Positions 7,723 to 19,729 of a stretch of 21,590 nt of DNA are shown one piece after another. The translations under genes were made by a program, and so were the position numbers. The DNA comes from a virus. Where the stretch lies: the IMG/VR virus record IMGVR_UViG_3300009009_000052, positions 1-21,590 of that record. One strand, 5' to 3'. Positions within the stretch are counted from its first letter, which is position 1. Each line of letters begins with the position of its first letter. The notes beneath the pieces are model-generated. The model saw only the letters and a program-made list of their open reading frames with translations. It was not told where the DNA came from and searched no databases.

Positions 7723-8385
7723 TTATTCAGCCATATTACATGGTGCTATATGGATGCACTGCGTCCGGTTTGATATCCAGCTCGCAAGTCCAACCATGCG
7801 CCTGCCCTCACACTCCAATCGGAGATTGGTATGAAGCTCTCCGGTAAAGTAGTCCGTCTTTTCGAGGACGCTGGACGGATAGAGCACCTCGTATTCAGCT
7901 CCCTCGATGTCCATCTTCATCAGCCTACAACGGTCAATGCGCAAGATATCAAAGACCTGATCCAACGGAAATGCTGGCACCTCGACTTCATAGTGATGTT
8001 CGGGATTGAACGTGCACTTACTGGTGCTTCCTCCTGAGAAGTCTTTCGACACGATGAATTTCACCGACTTCTGCCCCGGCGCTGAAACACAATAAGGGAA
8101 GACCTCAACGTTCAGGGTAGAATTCAAAACTATATTTTTGCTTAAGGTGGCAACCGTCTTTGGGATGGGCTCGATAGCTATAACGCGAGTCTTCGGGAAC
8201 AGCTTGGCGATCACGATAGAAAAGAAGCCCTCGTTCGCCCCGACATCAACGATAACGTCGCCGTCCCGGAACTCTATTCCTTTCTCGAACACCTTGTAGT
8301 TGTCTGAGAAGATTTCCTCTACCAACTGAGGAGCTGTCTTCGTGTCCATGAATTCAAGCTTCTGCCCTCTGAATTCCTTTATCAT
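7723..8385 (-). CDS. FkbM-family SAM-dependent methyltransferase
   Basis: 220 aa. ATG 8385 overlaps the upstream stop as ATGA and has AGGAGA. Class I methyltransferase motifs: motif I VDVGANEGFFSIV (46-58), acidic post-I IEPIPKT (71-77), and the FkbM signature MKMDIEGAEYEVL (156-168). FkbM enzymes O-methylate sugars or small molecules; in phages they may modify glycans or metabolites. The C-terminus (SWISNRTQCIHIAPCNMAE) is short and unusual. The gene is wedged between the TerS-like gene and TerL, within the packaging operon, which is not a standard place for it, and translational coupling implies late expression. The substrate is not deducible. Confidence 0.85.
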   Translation of the reverse strand: MIKEFRGQKLEFMDTKTAPQLVEEIFSDNYKVFEKGIEFRDGDVIVDVGANEGFFSIVIAKLFPKTRVIAIEPIPKTVATLSKNIVLNSTLNVEVFPYCVSAPGQKSVKFIVSKDFSGGSTSKCTFNPEHHYEVEVPAFPLDQVFDILRIDRCRLMKMDIEGAEYEVLYPSSVLEKTDYFTGELHTNLRLECEGRRMVGLASWISNRTQCIHIAPCNMAE

Positions 8386-10927: not shown

Positions 10928-11305
10928 TCATAATAATTCCTTTTGAAGTTCCCATTTTATCAGCAGCCCCCAAAACGGCAGGCCGTGAGTTTTCCTGAAA
11001 AAGTCGTAGAACTTTTTCGCTGATTTAAATCCATCTGCCCTAATAAATCTGATTTCCTCCGCAAGGGGAAGCAGTCTTACCCCGACAACAATTTCATAAT
11101 GTTCTTCAATACATATCGGCTCAACGCTCGTACAAGTCCCCTCTCCGAGTTTCTTGCAATATTGTGTTCTCATCCCTGTATAGAGATAAAGCGTCTGCCC
11201 CGGTCTCGGATTCTTACAGTCTTTCCGTAGCGCCCGGATCGTCTGTTTCTTCTCGCCGGAAGCAACCTTGTCGGAAAACTCTTTTTTAAAGTTTAGGGCT
11301 GGCAT
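10928..11305 (-). CDS. ASCH-domain protein
   Basis: 125 aa, ATG 11305 after GGAAGGAG. The sequence has the ASCH/PUA-like signature: an N-terminal FKKEFSDKVASGEKKQTIRA (K-x-T-x-R with Gly before it), then KNPRPGQTLYLYTGMRTQYC, a later beta-rich segment and a C-terminal LPFWGLLIKWE strand. ASCH domains bind RNA or modified nucleosides; YqfB of E. coli is an N4-acetylcytidine amidohydrolase of this fold. Phage ASCH proteins of this size are common, with mostly unproven function. It is the first gene after the leftward promoter, so probably expressed early and strongly. Confidence 0.8.
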   Translation of the reverse strand: MPALNFKKEFSDKVASGEKKQTIRALRKDCKNPRPGQTLYLYTGMRTQYCKKLGEGTCTSVEPICIEEHYEIVVGVRLLPLAEEIRFIRADGFKSAKKFYDFFRKTHGLPFWGLLIKWELQKELL

Positions 11306-11457
11306 TTCACTCCTTCCTTGCCGGTGTCGGCATCATTCTTCTGGCAACCTATCCGGCACTACTTCTTTGATTATTTTCCCGCATTATCCGGCCTTCTGCG
11401 GGTCTTGCTGGCGATCATGCGGTTCCCCAACCGTGCCGTACCAGTTCAGTAGACTTA

Positions 11458-11486
11458 TATATATTACCTATAGGTAAGGAGGTCAA
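11458..11486 (-). promoter_or_regulatory. Leftward sigma70-type promoter with operator in its spacer
   Basis: Minus strand: -35 TTGACC (11486-11481), 17-nt spacer, -10 TATATA (11463-11458). The spacer contains the perfect 14-bp palindrome TTACCTATAGGTAA (11477-11464), positioned exactly where a repressor would block RNA polymerase. It would give a leader of about 145 nt ahead of the ASCH gene. Confidence 0.6.
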
Positions 11487-11595
11487 GGATTATTTTTTAT
11501 TATTTTCCGGAGATGATTTCTGTGGCAGAAAAGAGAAATGTGGTCTACCTCATACTGTAGCTCTGTTATAAATACTGGTATGCTTTATTAACAGC

Positions 11596-11608
11596 GCAAC
11601 GGAGTTGC
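11596..11608. repeat. Dispersed palindrome copy 3
   Basis: GCAACGGAGTTGC, extended by one pair to CGCAACGGAGTTGCG. TTAACA (11588-11593) precedes it by 2 nt, as at copies 4 and 5. Confidence 0.65.
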
Positions 11609-11649
11609 GTACAGATATTCTGAGATGTGATAACTATGTATGGGTGGTA

Positions 11650-12010
11650 TAAAGAGGCTCCATGGCTACCCCCTCCATCGCGCGTCAGGTCACCCCGGTG
11701 GGCCCGGAATAAGCATTCTTTTAAAGCCCTACGGAGAGATAGCTCGCCTCACGAAGGGATAGTCAATGCGCGCTGTGCGCTCACGGAGCCATGACTAAGC
11801 ACGGGCACATAGTCATGATTGAGCGCCGGAGGCAGGGGCCAATGGATATAATAGATGTGCTATGCGCCATATGTGCATGTATGGGCACGATGATCTGTAT
11901 AATGGCCTCGTAGGATGCCCTGAGGGGCACGATCAGGGAGCCGGGCAGGTCATAGTATGGCCTGAAAAGGGCAACATTTTACAAGTCGGGGTATCCTGCC
12001 CGTGGAGAGA
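11650..12010 (+). ncRNA. Hairpin-dense block, candidate structured RNA
   Basis: Several perfect helices can be drawn: GGCTCC (11656-11661) with GGAGCC (11785-11790); CATGACTA (11790-11797) with TAGTCATG (11810-11817); TGCCC-TGAG-GGGCA nested inside TGATC/GATCA (about 11891-11934); CGGGCAGG (11942-11949) with CCTGCCCG (about 11995-12002), enclosing AGGTCAT-AGT-ATGGCCT. The block is GC-rich within AT-richer flanks and has no good ORF. Strand is assumed from the rightward RNA downstream. No known RNA family is recognised and there is no covariation to prove it. Confidence 0.35.
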
Positions 12011-12387
12011 GGGCACTGGTTGTAATGATATCAAGGGGATATAAAAAGGGTAGTTTGTCAAATAGAAGTTGACAGGGAGAGCCGGGAGAGCGGAGATGTA
12101 CGTTTAGTTGTACTGTTATTAGTACTTCTGTGTGTGGAAGGTGTCGTTTTGGTGCTTTCTGGGGTACTAAATAGCTGGGTATGGTCTTCATTGACAATAG
12201 GGTAATGAGGTCTGTATCTGTTCTTTGGTGATTATATGACTCCGGCGCGCGCTTTTTTGAACAGGTTATTGAGGGGCTTTTGTTCTGTTTCGAGGGTTAT
12301 GGCCTTAGGTCGGCGGATTGTTCCGGCCCTGTGCTCTTTTCGTTAGGCGGTCTATCTTGAGATAGGGCTCGTAGGCCGGTGAAGTCC

Positions 12388-12418
12388 ATTCGACATTAAA
12401 AGTCGAATATTCGACATT
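12388..12418. repeat. Three alternating ATTCGAC half-sites
   Basis: ATTCGACATT (12388-12397), GTCGAAT (12402-12408), ATTCGACATT (12409-12418). The centre forms the perfect palindrome GTCGAATATTCGAC (12402-12415). Operator-like or replication-protein-binding arrangement. Confidence 0.6.
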
Positions 12419-12423
12419 GGAAT

Positions 12424-12451
12424 CCGGTACCGGTTACCCTGAACACCGGTG
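12424..12451. repeat. Two short GC palindromes
   Basis: CCGGTACCGG (12424-12433) and CACCGGTG (12444-12451), ten bases apart, directly after the ATTCGAC cluster. Confidence 0.5.
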
Positions 12452-12461
12452 ACAGGATAAA

Positions 12462-12479
12462 GGAATATTGATAAAAGGG
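12462..12479. repeat. 18-bp direct repeat, copy 1
   Basis: GGAATATTGATAAAAGGG, exact copy at 12598-12615. Confidence 0.75.
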
Positions 12480-12597
12480 GTCTTTTTATTGGCGCGTTGA
12501 GATAGGAGGCGTAAAAAAATAAAATGTCACGTTTTCCTTTGTCGCTGATAATTATGTATCCGGTGGCATCAATTCTAAGGACTCAGGCCGATGTGAT

Positions 12598-12615
12598 GGA
12601 ATATTGATAAAAGGG
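12598..12615. repeat. 18-bp direct repeat, copy 2
   Basis: GGAATATTGATAAAAGGG, 136 bp after copy 1. Confidence 0.75.
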
Positions 12616-12642
12616 TGAATTTAGGCTTTTGTGCGCTTCTGG

Positions 12643-12777
12643 GTGCCGGGACGGGGATAAATAGGCTCCTGAGATGCCCCGGAATCGATTATCTCTGGGT
12701 CAGCCTTATGATGGTATGCCTGATATCTGGCCTTTTGTGTCCGGTGGCCGGGAAGGGGTAAAATAGATAATAGGCTC
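12643..12777. repeat. Degenerate repeat pair GTG(G)CCGGGA...AATAGGCTC
   Basis: A segment beginning GTGCCGGGACGGGGATAA and ending AATAGGCTC (12643-12668) resembles one beginning GTGGCCGGGAAGGGGTAA and ending AATAGGCTC (12744-12777). GAATCGATTAT also occurs twice nearby (12682-12692, 12893-12903). Confidence 0.5.
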
Positions 12778-12797
12778 TTTTGGTGTAACTTGATATC

Positions 12798-12810
12798 GCA
12801 ATGCCGTTGC
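12798..12810. repeat. Dispersed palindrome copy 4 (one mismatch)
   Basis: GCAATGCCGTTGC, preceded by TTGATA (12790-12795) at 2 nt distance. Confidence 0.55.
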
Positions 12811-12825
12811 GCTTTTTATTCTCAA

Positions 12826-12860
12826 CAAGCGGCTTCCTGAATCCGTGCAAGCGGCTTTCT
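12826..12860. repeat. Iteron-like pair CAAGCGGCTTyCT
   Basis: CAAGCGGCTTCCT (12826-12838) and CAAGCGGCTTTCT (12848-12860), same orientation, 22 bp apart (about two helical turns). Confidence 0.55.
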
Positions 12861-12974
12861 ATGAATAGGCCAGTTATCGCCAGATAGAGTCCGAATCGAT
12901 TATAATGCCTCCTGCTGGGCTTTAACTTTTTAAGCTGTCCTTGTCGGTGGTTTTCTTGCGAACAGGCTCTGGGC

Positions 12975-13002
12975 TTGAAAGCGCAACGATGTTGCATATA
13001 AA
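12975..13002 (+). promoter_or_regulatory. Candidate rightward promoter with palindrome in its spacer
   Basis: TTGAAA (12975-12980), 16-nt spacer, TATAAA (12997-13002). The spacer contains GCAACGATGTTGC (12983-12995), copy 5 of the dispersed palindrome. Could drive the structured RNA and the rightward operon. Confidence 0.45.
12983..12995. repeat. Dispersed palindrome copy 5
   Basis: GCAACGATGTTGC lying between -35-like and -10-like hexamers. Confidence 0.6.
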
Positions 13003-13269
13003 TAGAGCGAAAAACGTAACCCTGCTCGCGGTACATTGATTCTATTGGCTCAGCGGGGACACTATCTGTGAATAGCCTATTGCGTAGCGCTCGCAGGGAC
13101 AGAAAATAGACGCTGAAATCAAAAGTTAACAGGAAATTGACCCTGTTTCAGGATGTGTAAAATAAATATGAATAAATATTAAAATATTATCTTCAATTAT
13201 ATCTGCTGATTATAGACTTTGTGTAAAATTAATGTAAATTAATGTTTGACAGGATATCAATTATATAAG

Positions 13270-13548
13270 AAAAGGAACCTACACCTTGAATATATCAAGA
13301 GTGTGACTGAGAGAGGCAAGGGAAACGGCCTCAGTGAGTAAACCCGTAAAACATCTCAGGTGGTTGCCCCGGAAAATATCCGGGGATGGCGCTCCTTGGT
13401 CACTGCTGAAAACCAATAGCCTCAGCAGGGTGCACAACACAACAGGCCGGGGTAAGGTAACGAAACAAGCGTCCCTCACGGGAGTTCACTCCTGTATGAT
13501 AGCGATGGTATCGCGTAGACTCATACAGTGCAAAGCTCACGGGGTGAA
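13270..13548 (+). ncRNA. Highly structured RNA upstream of the rightward operon
   Basis: Successive helices visible: CTTGA-ATATA-TCAAG (13285-13299) inside CAC/GTG; GAGGC...GCCTC with AGT/ACT extension (13306-13335 region); CCCCGG-AAAATAT-CCGGGG (13367-13385); CTGCTGA...TCAGCAG (about 13403-13428), whose loop holds ACCAA able to pair with the preceding TTGGT, a possible pseudoknot; CTGTATGA...TCATACAG (about 13492-13528) enclosing GCGAT-GGT-ATCGC; TCAC-GGG-GTGA (about 13537-13547). Many purine-rich joining segments (GGAAAC, GTAAAAC, GGTAACGAAAC). Flanked upstream by AT-rich sequence and downstream by the hammerhead-like fold. No family recognised; not a tRNA. Confidence 0.55.
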
Positions 13549-13600
13549 TGGATTCAGGATATAGTATCCTGCTGATGTGCTCAGACGAGAGCGAAATCCA
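13549..13600 (+). ncRNA. Hammerhead-ribozyme-like fold (type III, open stem III)
   Basis: Stem III: TGGAT (13549-13553) with ATCCA (13596-13600), U16.1-A15.1 in place. H17 is U13554, so cleavage is predicted after it. Stem I: CAGGATA-TAG-TATCCTG (13555-13571), seven perfect pairs. Core strand CTGATGT (13572-13578). Stem II: GCTC-AGACGA-GAGC (13579-13592), four perfect pairs. Then GAA (13593-13595) closing the core. The only departure from the consensus CUGANGA...GAAA core is U instead of A at position 9. Cleavage would separate the upstream structured RNA from the mRNA of the rightward operon 28 nt before its first start codon's region. Confidence 0.6.
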
Positions 13601-14341: not shown

Positions 14342-14515
14342 ATGTGTGACATGAAAGAACTCTTTAAAAAACTGGCAGAAGTAAAGGCTGTCACTCCTAC
14401 AGAATCGGGCATTGACACGGACAGGCTCCGGTATGTAGTAGCGGCAACAAGGGCAAACAATAATTATAAAGGAGAATTAAAATGGAAAGAATTGAGGGCA
14501 ATAGAATCCGTATAA
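14342..14515 (+). CDS. Small protein overlapping the amidoligase start (57 aa)
   Basis: ATG 14342 after AGGGGG with 7-nt spacing. MCDMKELFKKLAEVKAVTPT, then ESGIDTDRLRYVVAATRANN, NYKGELKWKELRAIESV. Its 3' end overlaps the amidoligase gene by 34 nt in another frame and contains that gene's AAGGAG ribosome site, so the two are likely translationally coupled. Not recognised. A small coupled partner ahead of a peptide-bond-forming enzyme could be a regulator or a substrate, but this is only a guess. Confidence 0.55.
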   Translation: MCDMKELFKKLAEVKAVTPTESGIDTDRLRYVVAATRANNNYKGELKWKELRAIESV

Positions 14516-16458
14516 TCGGGCGAAAGTTATCAGAGGGCGCTCCGGCAAGAAGATCGACTCTTGATGCGCTGATTGACCATTTACATCTTAAGAACTACTT
14601 CAAGGTAGTAGAGCATGGACACGACAGGAGCTTCCAGCGGCAGTCTTGCTATATATCGGGAATTACTACTGAGTGTCCGAAGCCGCGCCGCAACCGGACT
14701 GAGCAGAATATCTCCGGGATGTATGGTTATAGAAGACGATGCTCATGGGACACGGCTAACTATCTTCCAAGGGCAGAGGGTGCAACCGAGCCGACAATCG
14801 CCTTTGCCTTTGATGGCGGCAAAGCTGTCCGGGCAGTATACTATAAAGAGTCCGGGACTCTTCTGCTGGGTAACTTTTCTTTTAGTAGCACTTCATCAGT
14901 GGAGTATCTTTCAAAGATTATGAGCTTCCTTACTACTCCAGATGAAAGCGGCAAGGTTCATCTTGCCCCGCTTCCGGCAATTGATCTTCCAGCGGTAGAA
15001 GTAAAAAGCTATATTCACATGGTTGAACTCCATAAGGGTGAACAGGTAATTGTAAAGCTTGATGCTGATAGAAAACTTTGCACGACTGGTTGTGACCCTG
15101 AATTCGAGTACCTTGAGAATGGGATTGCGAAACGTCCGTCAGCAATGTTTAAAGGCTCAACACCGAGCACCGAGATAGGTGTTGACGGTTCGGGCTTGTC
15201 AGTAGAATTACGTCCGAAGGCGTTTGAGAAGCCCTCAGACTTGATATCTTATATGATTGGCATAATGGAGCGCATTCCCGGTGAGGTCGGCCTCTCAGTG
15301 GCCGGGAACCACGCTCCGCTGGGCGGCCATGTGCATATCGGAGTAGGCCGGGAATATATTCCGAGCACCGATCTTATCTGGTTGCTCGATTCTTTTCTGG
15401 GAAAACCTGTTCTTGACCTTTCGGGCAGTAAGCGTGACAGCTATAAGCGGACAGGACAGGTCAGGGAACAGCCATGGGGTTTTGAGTATCGGACTCCGCC
15501 ATCAGCTATCTTTGCTTTTCCGGAGATAGCGCGCATTGCAGTGAAAATATGCAAGGTGTTGACCGAATGCTATGTCAACGGCCAGACGATGGAAATCAAT
15601 CAGCCGTTGCAGTTCGAGGACTACTGGAATTATGCGGGGCTCATTCCGAAAGAGTACGAATTATGGCAGGGCTTTTTATCTCAGTACAGAAGTTCGGACG
15701 CCGCAAGAAGTGCGAACGTAGTGCCATTATGGACTTGCGAGGCCGCCAAGAAGAGATATCCTTCTCAATTGGAAGCGGCGAGAACTTCTCCGGGGGCACG
15801 AAGCTTCCAAAGGAATCTTGAAGAGGACAGGGAGCAGGAGCGTGTTTCGGCGGCATATAGAGCCCAACAAGAGCTTGATCGGGCGAGAAGAATCAACCAA
15901 TCAAGGCAACCGATACAACAAGAGGCTTCTGAGGCGATTCTTTTCAGGGATGATTGGTCGAGTGTTGCCCAGAGTGCTTTTAACAGTAACATTACAAGCG
16001 CCTCATTAAGCAGGCCGGTAAGTTTATTCGGCCTGAATTCTGGCAGGGGTGATGTGGTATTCGGTTTTGATTGCGCCGGGTTTGATCGCATTCCAGCGAA
16101 TAGCGACATGAGCTGGGCGGGCTATGGAATACCGTACAGAGTTAGATGTCCAAGGAACGAACAAGATATCGCTGATGGTCAGCGTGTTGCAAGGGCTGTA
16201 TCGCAACAACACAGCATAACAACAGGCACGGCAAGCACTGCCGGGCGTTCCTCTATCGTTGAGGCCGCTCCGGTGGCTCCGGCTCAGACCTTTGACGCGG
16301 CGTTCGATGAAGCGGTTGGCACAACGATTACTGAGGGGCTCAGGCCGCTCCGTACTTCCGCTCCTTCAATGCCTGCGCCTGCCGTTGGGGGCAATATTGA
16401 CGAAGACTGGACTGCCTCAGGCGTGCCTGAGTTCCCGGTCGGCAATGATGAAGTATAA
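14482..16458 (+). CDS. phiEco32-type COOH-NH2 amidoligase (glutamine-synthetase-like fold)
   Basis: 658 aa, ATG 14482 after AAAGGAG. Motifs of the phage amidoligase type 2 family: GCDPEFEY (203-210, acidic metal/ATP ligands), EIGVDGSGLSVELRP (231-245), GGHVHIGVG (281-289), and EQPWGFEYRTPPSAIF (329-344). These enzymes use ATP to join a carboxyl to an amine, making amide or peptide bonds on unknown substrates. The N-terminal ~150 residues form a separate region with a Cys/Arg-rich stretch (C56, C65, C87). Residues after ~440 are Q/R/A-rich, low complexity, ending in an acidic tail. The following class II glutamine amidotransferase gene is the known partner of this family and could supply ammonia or act on gamma-glutamyl groups. 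Confidence 0.85.
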   Translation: MERIEGNRIRIIGRKLSEGAPARRSTLDALIDHLHLKNYFKVVEHGHDRSFQRQSCYISGITTECPKPRRNRTEQNISGMYGYRRRCSWDTANYLPRAEGATEPTIAFAFDGGKAVRAVYYKESGTLLLGNFSFSSTSSVEYLSKIMSFLTTPDESGKVHLAPLPAIDLPAVEVKSYIHMVELHKGEQVIVKLDADRKLCTTGCDPEFEYLENGIAKRPSAMFKGSTPSTEIGVDGSGLSVELRPKAFEKPSDLISYMIGIMERIPGEVGLSVAGNHAPLGGHVHIGVGREYIPSTDLIWLLDSFLGKPVLDLSGSKRDSYKRTGQVREQPWGFEYRTPPSAIFAFPEIARIAVKICKVLTECYVNGQTMEINQPLQFEDYWNYAGLIPKEYELWQGFLSQYRSSDAARSANVVPLWTCEAAKKRYPSQLEAARTSPGARSFQRNLEEDREQERVSAAYRAQQELDRARRINQSRQPIQQEASEAILFRDDWSSVAQSAFNSNITSASLSRPVSLFGLNSGRGDVVFGFDCAGFDRIPANSDMSWAGYGIPYRVRCPRNEQDIADGQRVARAVSQQHSITTGTASTAGRSSIVEAAPVAPAQTFDAAFDEAVGTTITEGLRPLRTSAPSMPAPAVGGNIDEDWTASGVPEFPVGNDEV

Positions 16459-16508: not shown

Positions 16509-17621
16509 ATGTGTATTATAGCGATTTGCGAGAAGAGATCACTTAAAAAGAAAGAGTTCGATGCCTGCTGGGACAATAACTCCCACGGCATGGGATACGC
16601 TCATTGGGACGGCAGCAAAATTGTTTCGACAAAGGGACACATGAAGCACAAAGAAGCATGGGAAATTTATCAGACGGTGCCCGTGCCTCATGTGGTGCAC
16701 TTTAGAATCAGAAGCGCCGGGGAAGTAGTGCCGGAGCTTACTCATCCCTTTCTTATAGAACATGCTTCCCGTGAGTTCGGGGAATATTCCGGACAGACTC
16801 CAGTGCTGTTTCATAATGGCACTGTCAGCGACTGGCGCGAACTTGTCATAATGGCGGCAATGCAGACGAAAGTCTTCCCGGAGGGTGTTATGTCAGATAG
16901 CCGTGCAATGGCCATTGCAATGAGTGTTGCCGGTGAACGGATTCTGGATTTTTTCTCCGGTATGAAATGGGTAGTAGTAGAAAAGAATGCCTTCCGGAAA
17001 TATGGCCAGTGGGTTGATGGCGAAGATGGCCTGCTATTCAGCAATGGAGGATTCAGGAAGCACGAAATCGTTGCCTGCTCGTCTATAGGTGACTGGCCGA
17101 CACGACGGGACTACTCCGGCGTCCCAGTGCAAACAACCTTTATTACTCCCGGTTGGCGCGGTAACTATGCGGACAGAAGGTGCACAAACTGCGTCTATTA
17201 TGTTTTAGACGATGCAAAGAGCGAGCCCTACTGCCTTTATAAAGAGGCCGAACTGGTGAACATGAACCCGTGCAGTGACTGGGAGGATGCAAAGAAGTAT
17301 GAAGACGTGGACACTCCAGAAAGAGTGTCCAGAGCGGATAAAACTTGTCTTGACTGCGAGAAGTATACAGGCATTAAGAAAGGGAAACCGCAATGCAAAT
17401 ATCTGGGAGCGATGAATAACACGAACTTGTGTAACCGTTTTTCTTTCAAGGCACCGAAAGGCAATATTTCATATTTGAACGGCAAGAATTGCCGGACGTG
17501 CAGTAGTTATGAAGGTGGCATGTCATGTATCAGAAAAGGCGTCCTGAAAGATATGTTTGCATGTAAGGAATACGAAAAGCTGGAAGAGGCGAAAGAGACA
17601 AACTACAGTTCGTTATCTTAA
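16509..17621 (+). CDS. Class II glutamine amidotransferase with three C-terminal four-Cys modules
   Basis: 370 aa, ATG 16509 after AAAGGAG. N-terminal Ntn-hydrolase glutaminase: Cys2 is the nucleophile after Met removal; HFRIRSAG (64-71) and THPF (78-81) match the R-x-A and substrate-binding loops; FHNGTVSDWREL (101-112) matches the HNG-x3-N region; SDSRAMA (129-135) matches the SDSE region. From 225 onward there are three tandem modules: C225-C228-C242-C255, C280-C283-C296-C308, C328-C331-C340-C352, each C-x2-C, then single Cys twice, likely zinc-binding. Gene order with the amidoligase fits the phage amidoligase/GATase-II pairing. The Cys modules might recognise the substrate or partner. 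Confidence 0.85.
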   Translation: MCIIAICEKRSLKKKEFDACWDNNSHGMGYAHWDGSKIVSTKGHMKHKEAWEIYQTVPVPHVVHFRIRSAGEVVPELTHPFLIEHASREFGEYSGQTPVLFHNGTVSDWRELVIMAAMQTKVFPEGVMSDSRAMAIAMSVAGERILDFFSGMKWVVVEKNAFRKYGQWVDGEDGLLFSNGGFRKHEIVACSSIGDWPTRRDYSGVPVQTTFITPGWRGNYADRRCTNCVYYVLDDAKSEPYCLYKEAELVNMNPCSDWEDAKKYEDVDTPERVSRADKTCLDCEKYTGIKKGKPQCKYLGAMNNTNLCNRFSFKAPKGNISYLNGKNCRTCSSYEGGMSCIRKGVLKDMFACKEYEKLEEAKETNYSSLS

Positions 17622-19326: not shown

Positions 19327-19354
19327 ACAAGGCAAACAGAAAAGGAGAAGAGAT

Positions 19355-19729
19355 ATGGATATTAATATTTTGAGAGGGTGCATTCTTGTGGGTGTCGATG
19401 GAGAGATTAAGGATACGGAAGTAATCTTTCAGACGGACTTCGGGGCAAGATATAAGATGTATCATGAGCAGGATTGATGTGAGCATGTATATCTGGATGA
19501 TATATGCGGAGAGTTTTCTGATTTAATCGGTGCCCCTCTTCTGGAAGTAGAGAAGATCGAGGGAGAGCATATCAGTGACGAAGAGACGGACTCCCTCACG
19601 TGGACGTTCTACAAGCTGGGAGCCATTAAGGGGCGTGTGACGCTGGTATGGAGAGGCGAGCCAAACGGCTATTATTCTGAGGGTGTGGATTTTTTACGGC
19701 TTGATGAAAACGGAGAAGCAATATACTAA
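19355..19729 (+). CDS. DUF7448-like protein with an in-frame TGA at codon 41 (candidate selenocysteine)
   Basis: ATG 19355 after AAGGAG. Reading through the TGA at 19475-19477 gives 124 residues: 40 before it (ending ARYKMYHEQD) and 83 after (starting CEHVYLDDICGEFSDLIGAP, later LTWTFYKLGAIKGRVTLVW and NGYYSEGVDFLRL). Both halves match one protein family as I remember it, in which this spot reads QDCCE; the TGA thus replaces the first Cys of a Cys-Cys pair. No start codon with ribosome site opens the second half. A hairpin begins 5 nt after the TGA (see next entry). Alternatives: nonsense mutation, sequencing error, or a truncated 40-aa peptide. Function of the family is unknown. Confidence 0.6.
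19483..19507 (+). promoter_or_regulatory. Hairpin after the in-frame TGA, bacterial SECIS-like geometry
   Basis: GCAT (19483-19486) pairs with ATGC (19504-19507), a GT bulge, then ATATC (19489-19493) with GATAT (19499-19503), loop TGGAT. The apical loop starts 17 nt after the TGA and has G as its second base, within the loose rules for bacterial SECIS elements. It could arise by chance in AT-rich coding sequence. Confidence 0.4.

Follow-up and report, generated by a model that had tools for sequence, protein, structure and literature searches.

Closest described systems

Bacterial genes with a bacterial selenocysteine insertion sequence (bSECIS), such as E. coli fdhF, carry an in-frame UGA at a cysteine (Cys) site and, 16-37 nucleotides (nt) away, a hairpin whose small loop contains a G. 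The same arrangement is found in a gene of the DUF7448 family at positions 19355-19729 of IMG/VR virus record IMGVR_UViG_3300009009_000052, the whole analysed stretch of which (21,590 nt) is referred to here as the window. In contrast to bacterial selenoprotein genes, the TGA-type DUF7448 genes are encoded by phages. We consider it probable, at roughly 0.87 on the evidence of sequence, that the window gene encodes a phage selenoprotein decoded by the selenocysteine (Sec) machinery of the host. This interpretation, first raised in an earlier note on the window, is supported by the Cys found at the site in homologues, by the recurrence of TGA at that Cys only, by the use of TGA as a stop elsewhere and by a SECIS-like hairpin selected in TGA genes but not in Cys genes.

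Several described selenoproteins share individual features with this locus. The CU-motif proteins SaoL, KCU-star and MbdU contain a vicinal Cys/Sec pair (PMC13188914), although the order in the window protein is U-C and not C-U. Known viral selenoproteins are the glutathione peroxidases of the poxviruses molluscum contagiosum and fowlpox (PMC8310308). These also represent virus genes with Sec that rely on host machinery, but they belong to eukaryotic viruses, derive from a captured cellular enzyme, depend on a eukaryotic SECIS and are unrelated to DUF7448. One report claims tRNA-Sec genes for huge phages (PMC10747093).

The words phage, virus and viral do not occur in the main text of a 2026 review of prokaryotic selenoproteins (PMC13188914), and DUF7448 is not among the DUF families that a search of this source returned. 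A literature search, with bioRxiv and most subscription journals outside its scope, returned no description of a phage-encoded selenoprotein family. TGA-type DUF7448 thus looks like an undescribed family of selenium-containing phage proteins.

A DUF7448 protein continuous across TGA

The open reading frame (ORF) begins with ATG at 19355, meets TGA at codon 41 (19475-19477) and proceeds with TGT-GAG, as the earlier note had it, and closes with TAA at 19727-19729 (Table 1). The claim that the two halves read as one protein is borne out by profile comparisons. The read-through product matches DUF7448 (Pfam PF24240) at 90.1 bits (E 1.5e-25, residues 12-113), where the Pfam gathering score of 27 bits was taken as the membership cut-off, and matches phrog_2650 at E 2e-38; both alignments cross the TGA in a single stretch. 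The window protein shares the whole domain, all invariant motifs and the size of the Cys-Cys form of the family, which is common in phages of Bacillus, Pseudomonas, Escherichia, Salmonella and Acinetobacter. It differs from that form in that TGA encodes the first Cys of the pair and a hairpin follows.

AlphaFold predicts a small beta-rich protein (mean predicted local distance difference test score, pLDDT, 85.7). A Foldseek search of the PDB with the predicted fold gave no good match, and the best second-look PDB matches, 8owu_D (an immunity protein, Z 6.3) and 5v77_B (Z 5.3), were too weak for a function assignment. The BFVD matches to the fold are further DUF7448 proteins of phages, along with relatives from giant viruses.

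Table 1. Features of the DUF7448 locus in the window.
Feature	Position	Strand	Remarks
Shine-Dalgarno-like AAGGAG, 5' of start	19342..19347	+	Read directly
DUF7448 gene, predicted selenoprotein	19355..19729	+	124 codons, single in-frame TGA read through
TGA, predicted selenocysteine codon (Sec41), first Cys of H-x-Q-D-C-C-E	19475..19477	+	
TGT, Cys42, vicinal partner	19478..19480	+	Cys in all 132 non-redundant relatives
Downstream coding half	19478..19726	+	Conserved, without stop or frameshift; WTFYK and NGYYSE motifs
SECIS-like hairpin	19487..19505	+	5' arm 19487-19493 GUAUAUC; loop 19494-19498 UGGAU; 3' arm 19499-19505 GAUAUAU

Recurrence of TGA at a conserved cysteine

In an alignment of 23 relatives, H37, D40, C41, C42, E43 and V45 are invariant. 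The homologues with Cys-Cys-Glu that the earlier note named do exist: H-x-Q-D-C-C-E is invariant, and the first Cys, with which the in-frame TGA aligns, is encoded by TGT or TGC in 126/126 Cys-type homologues from IMG/VR. Across 132 non-redundant IMG/VR sequences, this codon is TGT in 81, TGC in 45 and TGA in 6, and the second-Cys codon is always TGT or TGC.

A scan of the whole IMG/VR collection for HxQD-TGA-CExV returned six records, each of which tblastn places in DUF7448 or among its close kin, and a relaxed scan added contig L065 (HERD-TGA-CESV). Including the window, seven TGA lineages are known, which means at least six other phage lineages; a published rule for selenoproteins asks for at least two different sequences that share the TGA (PMC1088965). 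Contigs L029 and L030 represent one phage assembled twice, in separate IMG metagenome records; they share 99.99% identity over 9.4 kb, and TGA is present in both. The relative on contig L033 is more distant: it scores 23.5 bits against PF24240, below the cut-off, and 1e-7 against phrog_2650. Read on the full contig, its gene is complete with TGA, and it has its own Cys-type relatives. In a tree of 129 sequences, the TGA genes are scattered among Cys genes and five changes are needed. Few of 398 Pseudomonadota and 296 Spirochaetota genomes contain DUF7448, and no copy among them is interrupted by a stop; a search of the phage contigs for further TGA/Cys pairs gave no second convincing candidate.

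Random stops, which the earlier note had named as possible counter-evidence, amount to 1 in 13,323 codons of the 126 Cys-type homologues. This single internal stop is a TGA at the conserved Trp99 of a Cys-type gene (L182:690-1046), which may be nonsense, an error or something else. For a family of ~500 members (capture-recapture estimate), the background nonsense rate leads to ~0.04 expected TGA at the site. The strict scan found at least four independent TGA lineages with the window excluded (P ~8e-8; 7e-5 with the upper-bound rate), and TGA at the site therefore exceeds chance. TGA at the second Cys was found 0 times in the IMG/VR scan. TGA at the conserved Trp83, whose TGG codon is a single transition from TGA, gave 55 pattern matches, none in DUF7448; the wild-type form of this pattern fits 73/126 Cys-type genes.

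A SECIS-like hairpin enriched in TGA genes

A hairpin with a G-containing loop does lie downstream of the TGA, as the earlier note had claimed, at a spacing of 16 nt between UGA and loop instead of the 17 nt given there. In an alternative, longer form, GCAU (19483-19486) pairs across a bulge. In the bacterial SECIS model, the stem measures 4-16 bp, the loop has 3-9 nt with a G among its first two positions, and the distance to the UGA is 16-37 nt (PMC13188914); the window hairpin (7 bp, UGGAU, spacing 16) lies within these limits. To call the pattern classic, as had been done, was a little strong: geometry and loop fit, but on its own the hairpin has little stability (-5.1 to -6.9 kcal/mol).

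An explicit test required a stem of 7 bp or more with no interruption and no more than one G-U pair, a G at one of the first two loop positions, and a spacing of 14-24 nt. With the 7-bp stem and the spacing window chosen after looking, 6/7 TGA genes pass against 3/126 Cys-type genes (p = 8e-8). The published spacing of 16-37 nt gives 5/7 against 6/126 (p = 3e-5), and nearly all of 81 settings tried show enrichment, most below 0.05. When codons were redrawn from the usage of each contig with the amino acids fixed, the hairpin arose in 0.35% of synonymous variants for the window gene and in 0-5% for the other TGA genes. Because the hairpin is enriched over Cys genes and rare after synonymous recoding, it is kept at the RNA level in TGA genes. 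Searches against Rfam, at gathering score and with a relaxed E-value on the region, returned nothing relevant. The hairpin of the L033 gene holds a GGUCU loop on a CAGACU/AGUCUG stem, an apical loop that we take to be the same as that of E. coli fdhF.

Counter-evidence and alternative explanations

Several observations weigh against a selenoprotein. The hairpin energy (-5.1 kcal/mol alone, -6.9 in a 41-nt fold) misses the bSECISearch cut-off of <= -7.5 kcal/mol, a model that a subset of selenoprotein genes also fails (PMC13188914). The window hairpin is energetically the weakest among the TGA genes, while L028, L031, L065 and L033 pass this cut-off. Energy-based tests separate TGA from Cys genes weakly or not at all (p = 0.017; p = 0.2), the explicit hairpin test carries post hoc settings, and L032 forms an exception among the TGA genes, with no standard hairpin under the strict rule. 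A single origin of the TGA is not rejected (approximately unbiased test, AU p = 0.18). The HxQD-TGA-CExV scan, extended to 85,000 genomes of bacteria and archaea, gave nine matches, none in DUF7448, and eight isolate or phage records inspected for an odd annotation under the match carry no TGA at the site. The 21.6-kb virus record also has no assigned host; in a host search, near-DNA searches in phages gave nothing useful and protein relatives were too distant.

Among the alternatives, a UGA that specifies ordinary Cys, or a different amino acid, through a suppressor tRNA or a recoded phage or host code, is very unlikely. A tRNA-Cys with a UCA anticodon would likewise place TGA at the Cys codon only. 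However, TGA ends 3/14 non-overlapping ORFs of >=120 amino acids (aa) in the window, so that wholesale recoding is excluded, as the earlier note had concluded. Ordinary ORFs end in TGA on all eight contigs, and translation with code 4 is unneeded for the long ORFs. A search of the contigs for a UCA-anticodon or other suppressor tRNA found none, and a suppressor would leave the hairpin superfluous.

We give still less credence to a nonsense mutation, assembly error or gene decay. The window is one metagenomic contig without reads, and the TGA at Trp99 of L182 indicates that such events occur. Yet ~0.04 cases would be expected against the at least four lineages of the strict scan, two further ones and the window, and the comparison positions in DUF7448, the second Cys and Trp83, have none. 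The downstream halves, moreover, are intact and conserved, and the hairpin is selected in TGA genes only.

UGA is the leakiest stop codon. Regulated termination, in which a 40-residue N-terminal product is the important one or leaky insertion of any amino acid at the stop yields two products, could draw on this leakiness and on the help that a downstream hairpin can give to readthrough, but it is similarly improbable, as it offers no reason for a leaky stop in seven lineages at an otherwise invariant Cys or for a loop with a SelB-type G.

Proposed mechanism

If the gene encodes a selenoprotein, host SelB loaded with Sec-tRNA-Sec would bind the hairpin loop during infection, as in the known bacterial pathway. 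The charged tRNA would be made by host SelA, SelC and SelD, and selenocysteine would be inserted at codon 41, with other UGAs still terminating translation. More tentatively, Sec41 and Cys42 may form a vicinal selenol-thiol pair, adjacent in sequence to the conserved His37, Asp40 and Glu43. The small all-beta protein might then perform redox or nucleophilic thiol chemistry sped up by Sec, and the Cys-Cys forms in other hosts might do the same chemistry more slowly. That DUF7448 functions in redox or nucleophilic thiol chemistry stands at about even odds.

A search of the phage contigs for tRNA-Sec gave none above the cut-off. Of the sub-threshold matches, two coincide with ARAGORN tRNA-Leu calls and one with an ordinary predicted tRNA.

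Neighbouring genes and other loci

On an AT-rich phage contig, the TGA-type DUF7448 gene is followed downstream by ten tRNA genes (L051:9543-12710), among them one whose anticodon has four bases (taga). On L047 (3927-7932), and with the same genes on L049, an AAA_21 ATPase of 719 aa and, after it, a UvrD helicase of 619 aa stand just upstream of the TGA-type gene; this pair resembles a Gabija-type defence pair on a phage contig. Among other DUF7448 loci, the copy in a 485-kb phage (L250, LR745208.1) is broken by a frameshift unrelated to the TGA site, and Escherichia phage 26175III (L248) has an unannotated DUF7448 ORF between two tRNA-Ser genes.

The window also encodes a phiEco32-like COOH-NH2 ligase (14482-16458; PF14395, E 2e-11). 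The gene after it (16509-17621) specifies a 370-aa protein rich in cysteine that matches DUF7140 below the threshold. A methyltransferase (7723-8385; phrog_8156) lies amid the minus-strand structural genes. Between these structural genes and the small plus-strand genes, ~2.2 kb contain short ORFs only (11300-13570).

Implications

Taken more broadly, we lean towards a scenario in which phages of Sec-decoding hosts repeatedly turned a catalytic Cys of the widespread accessory protein DUF7448 into Sec, each time with a SECIS of their own, so that fitness genes would depend on host selenium metabolism. Gene callers split such TGA-containing phage genes in two. Because Sec takes the place of Cys almost exclusively in active sites, Cys41 of DUF7448 is likely the reactive residue. 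A selenoprotein in this family would thus provide a handle on the function of a common phage protein, and it predicts dependence of these phages on host selB and selenium.
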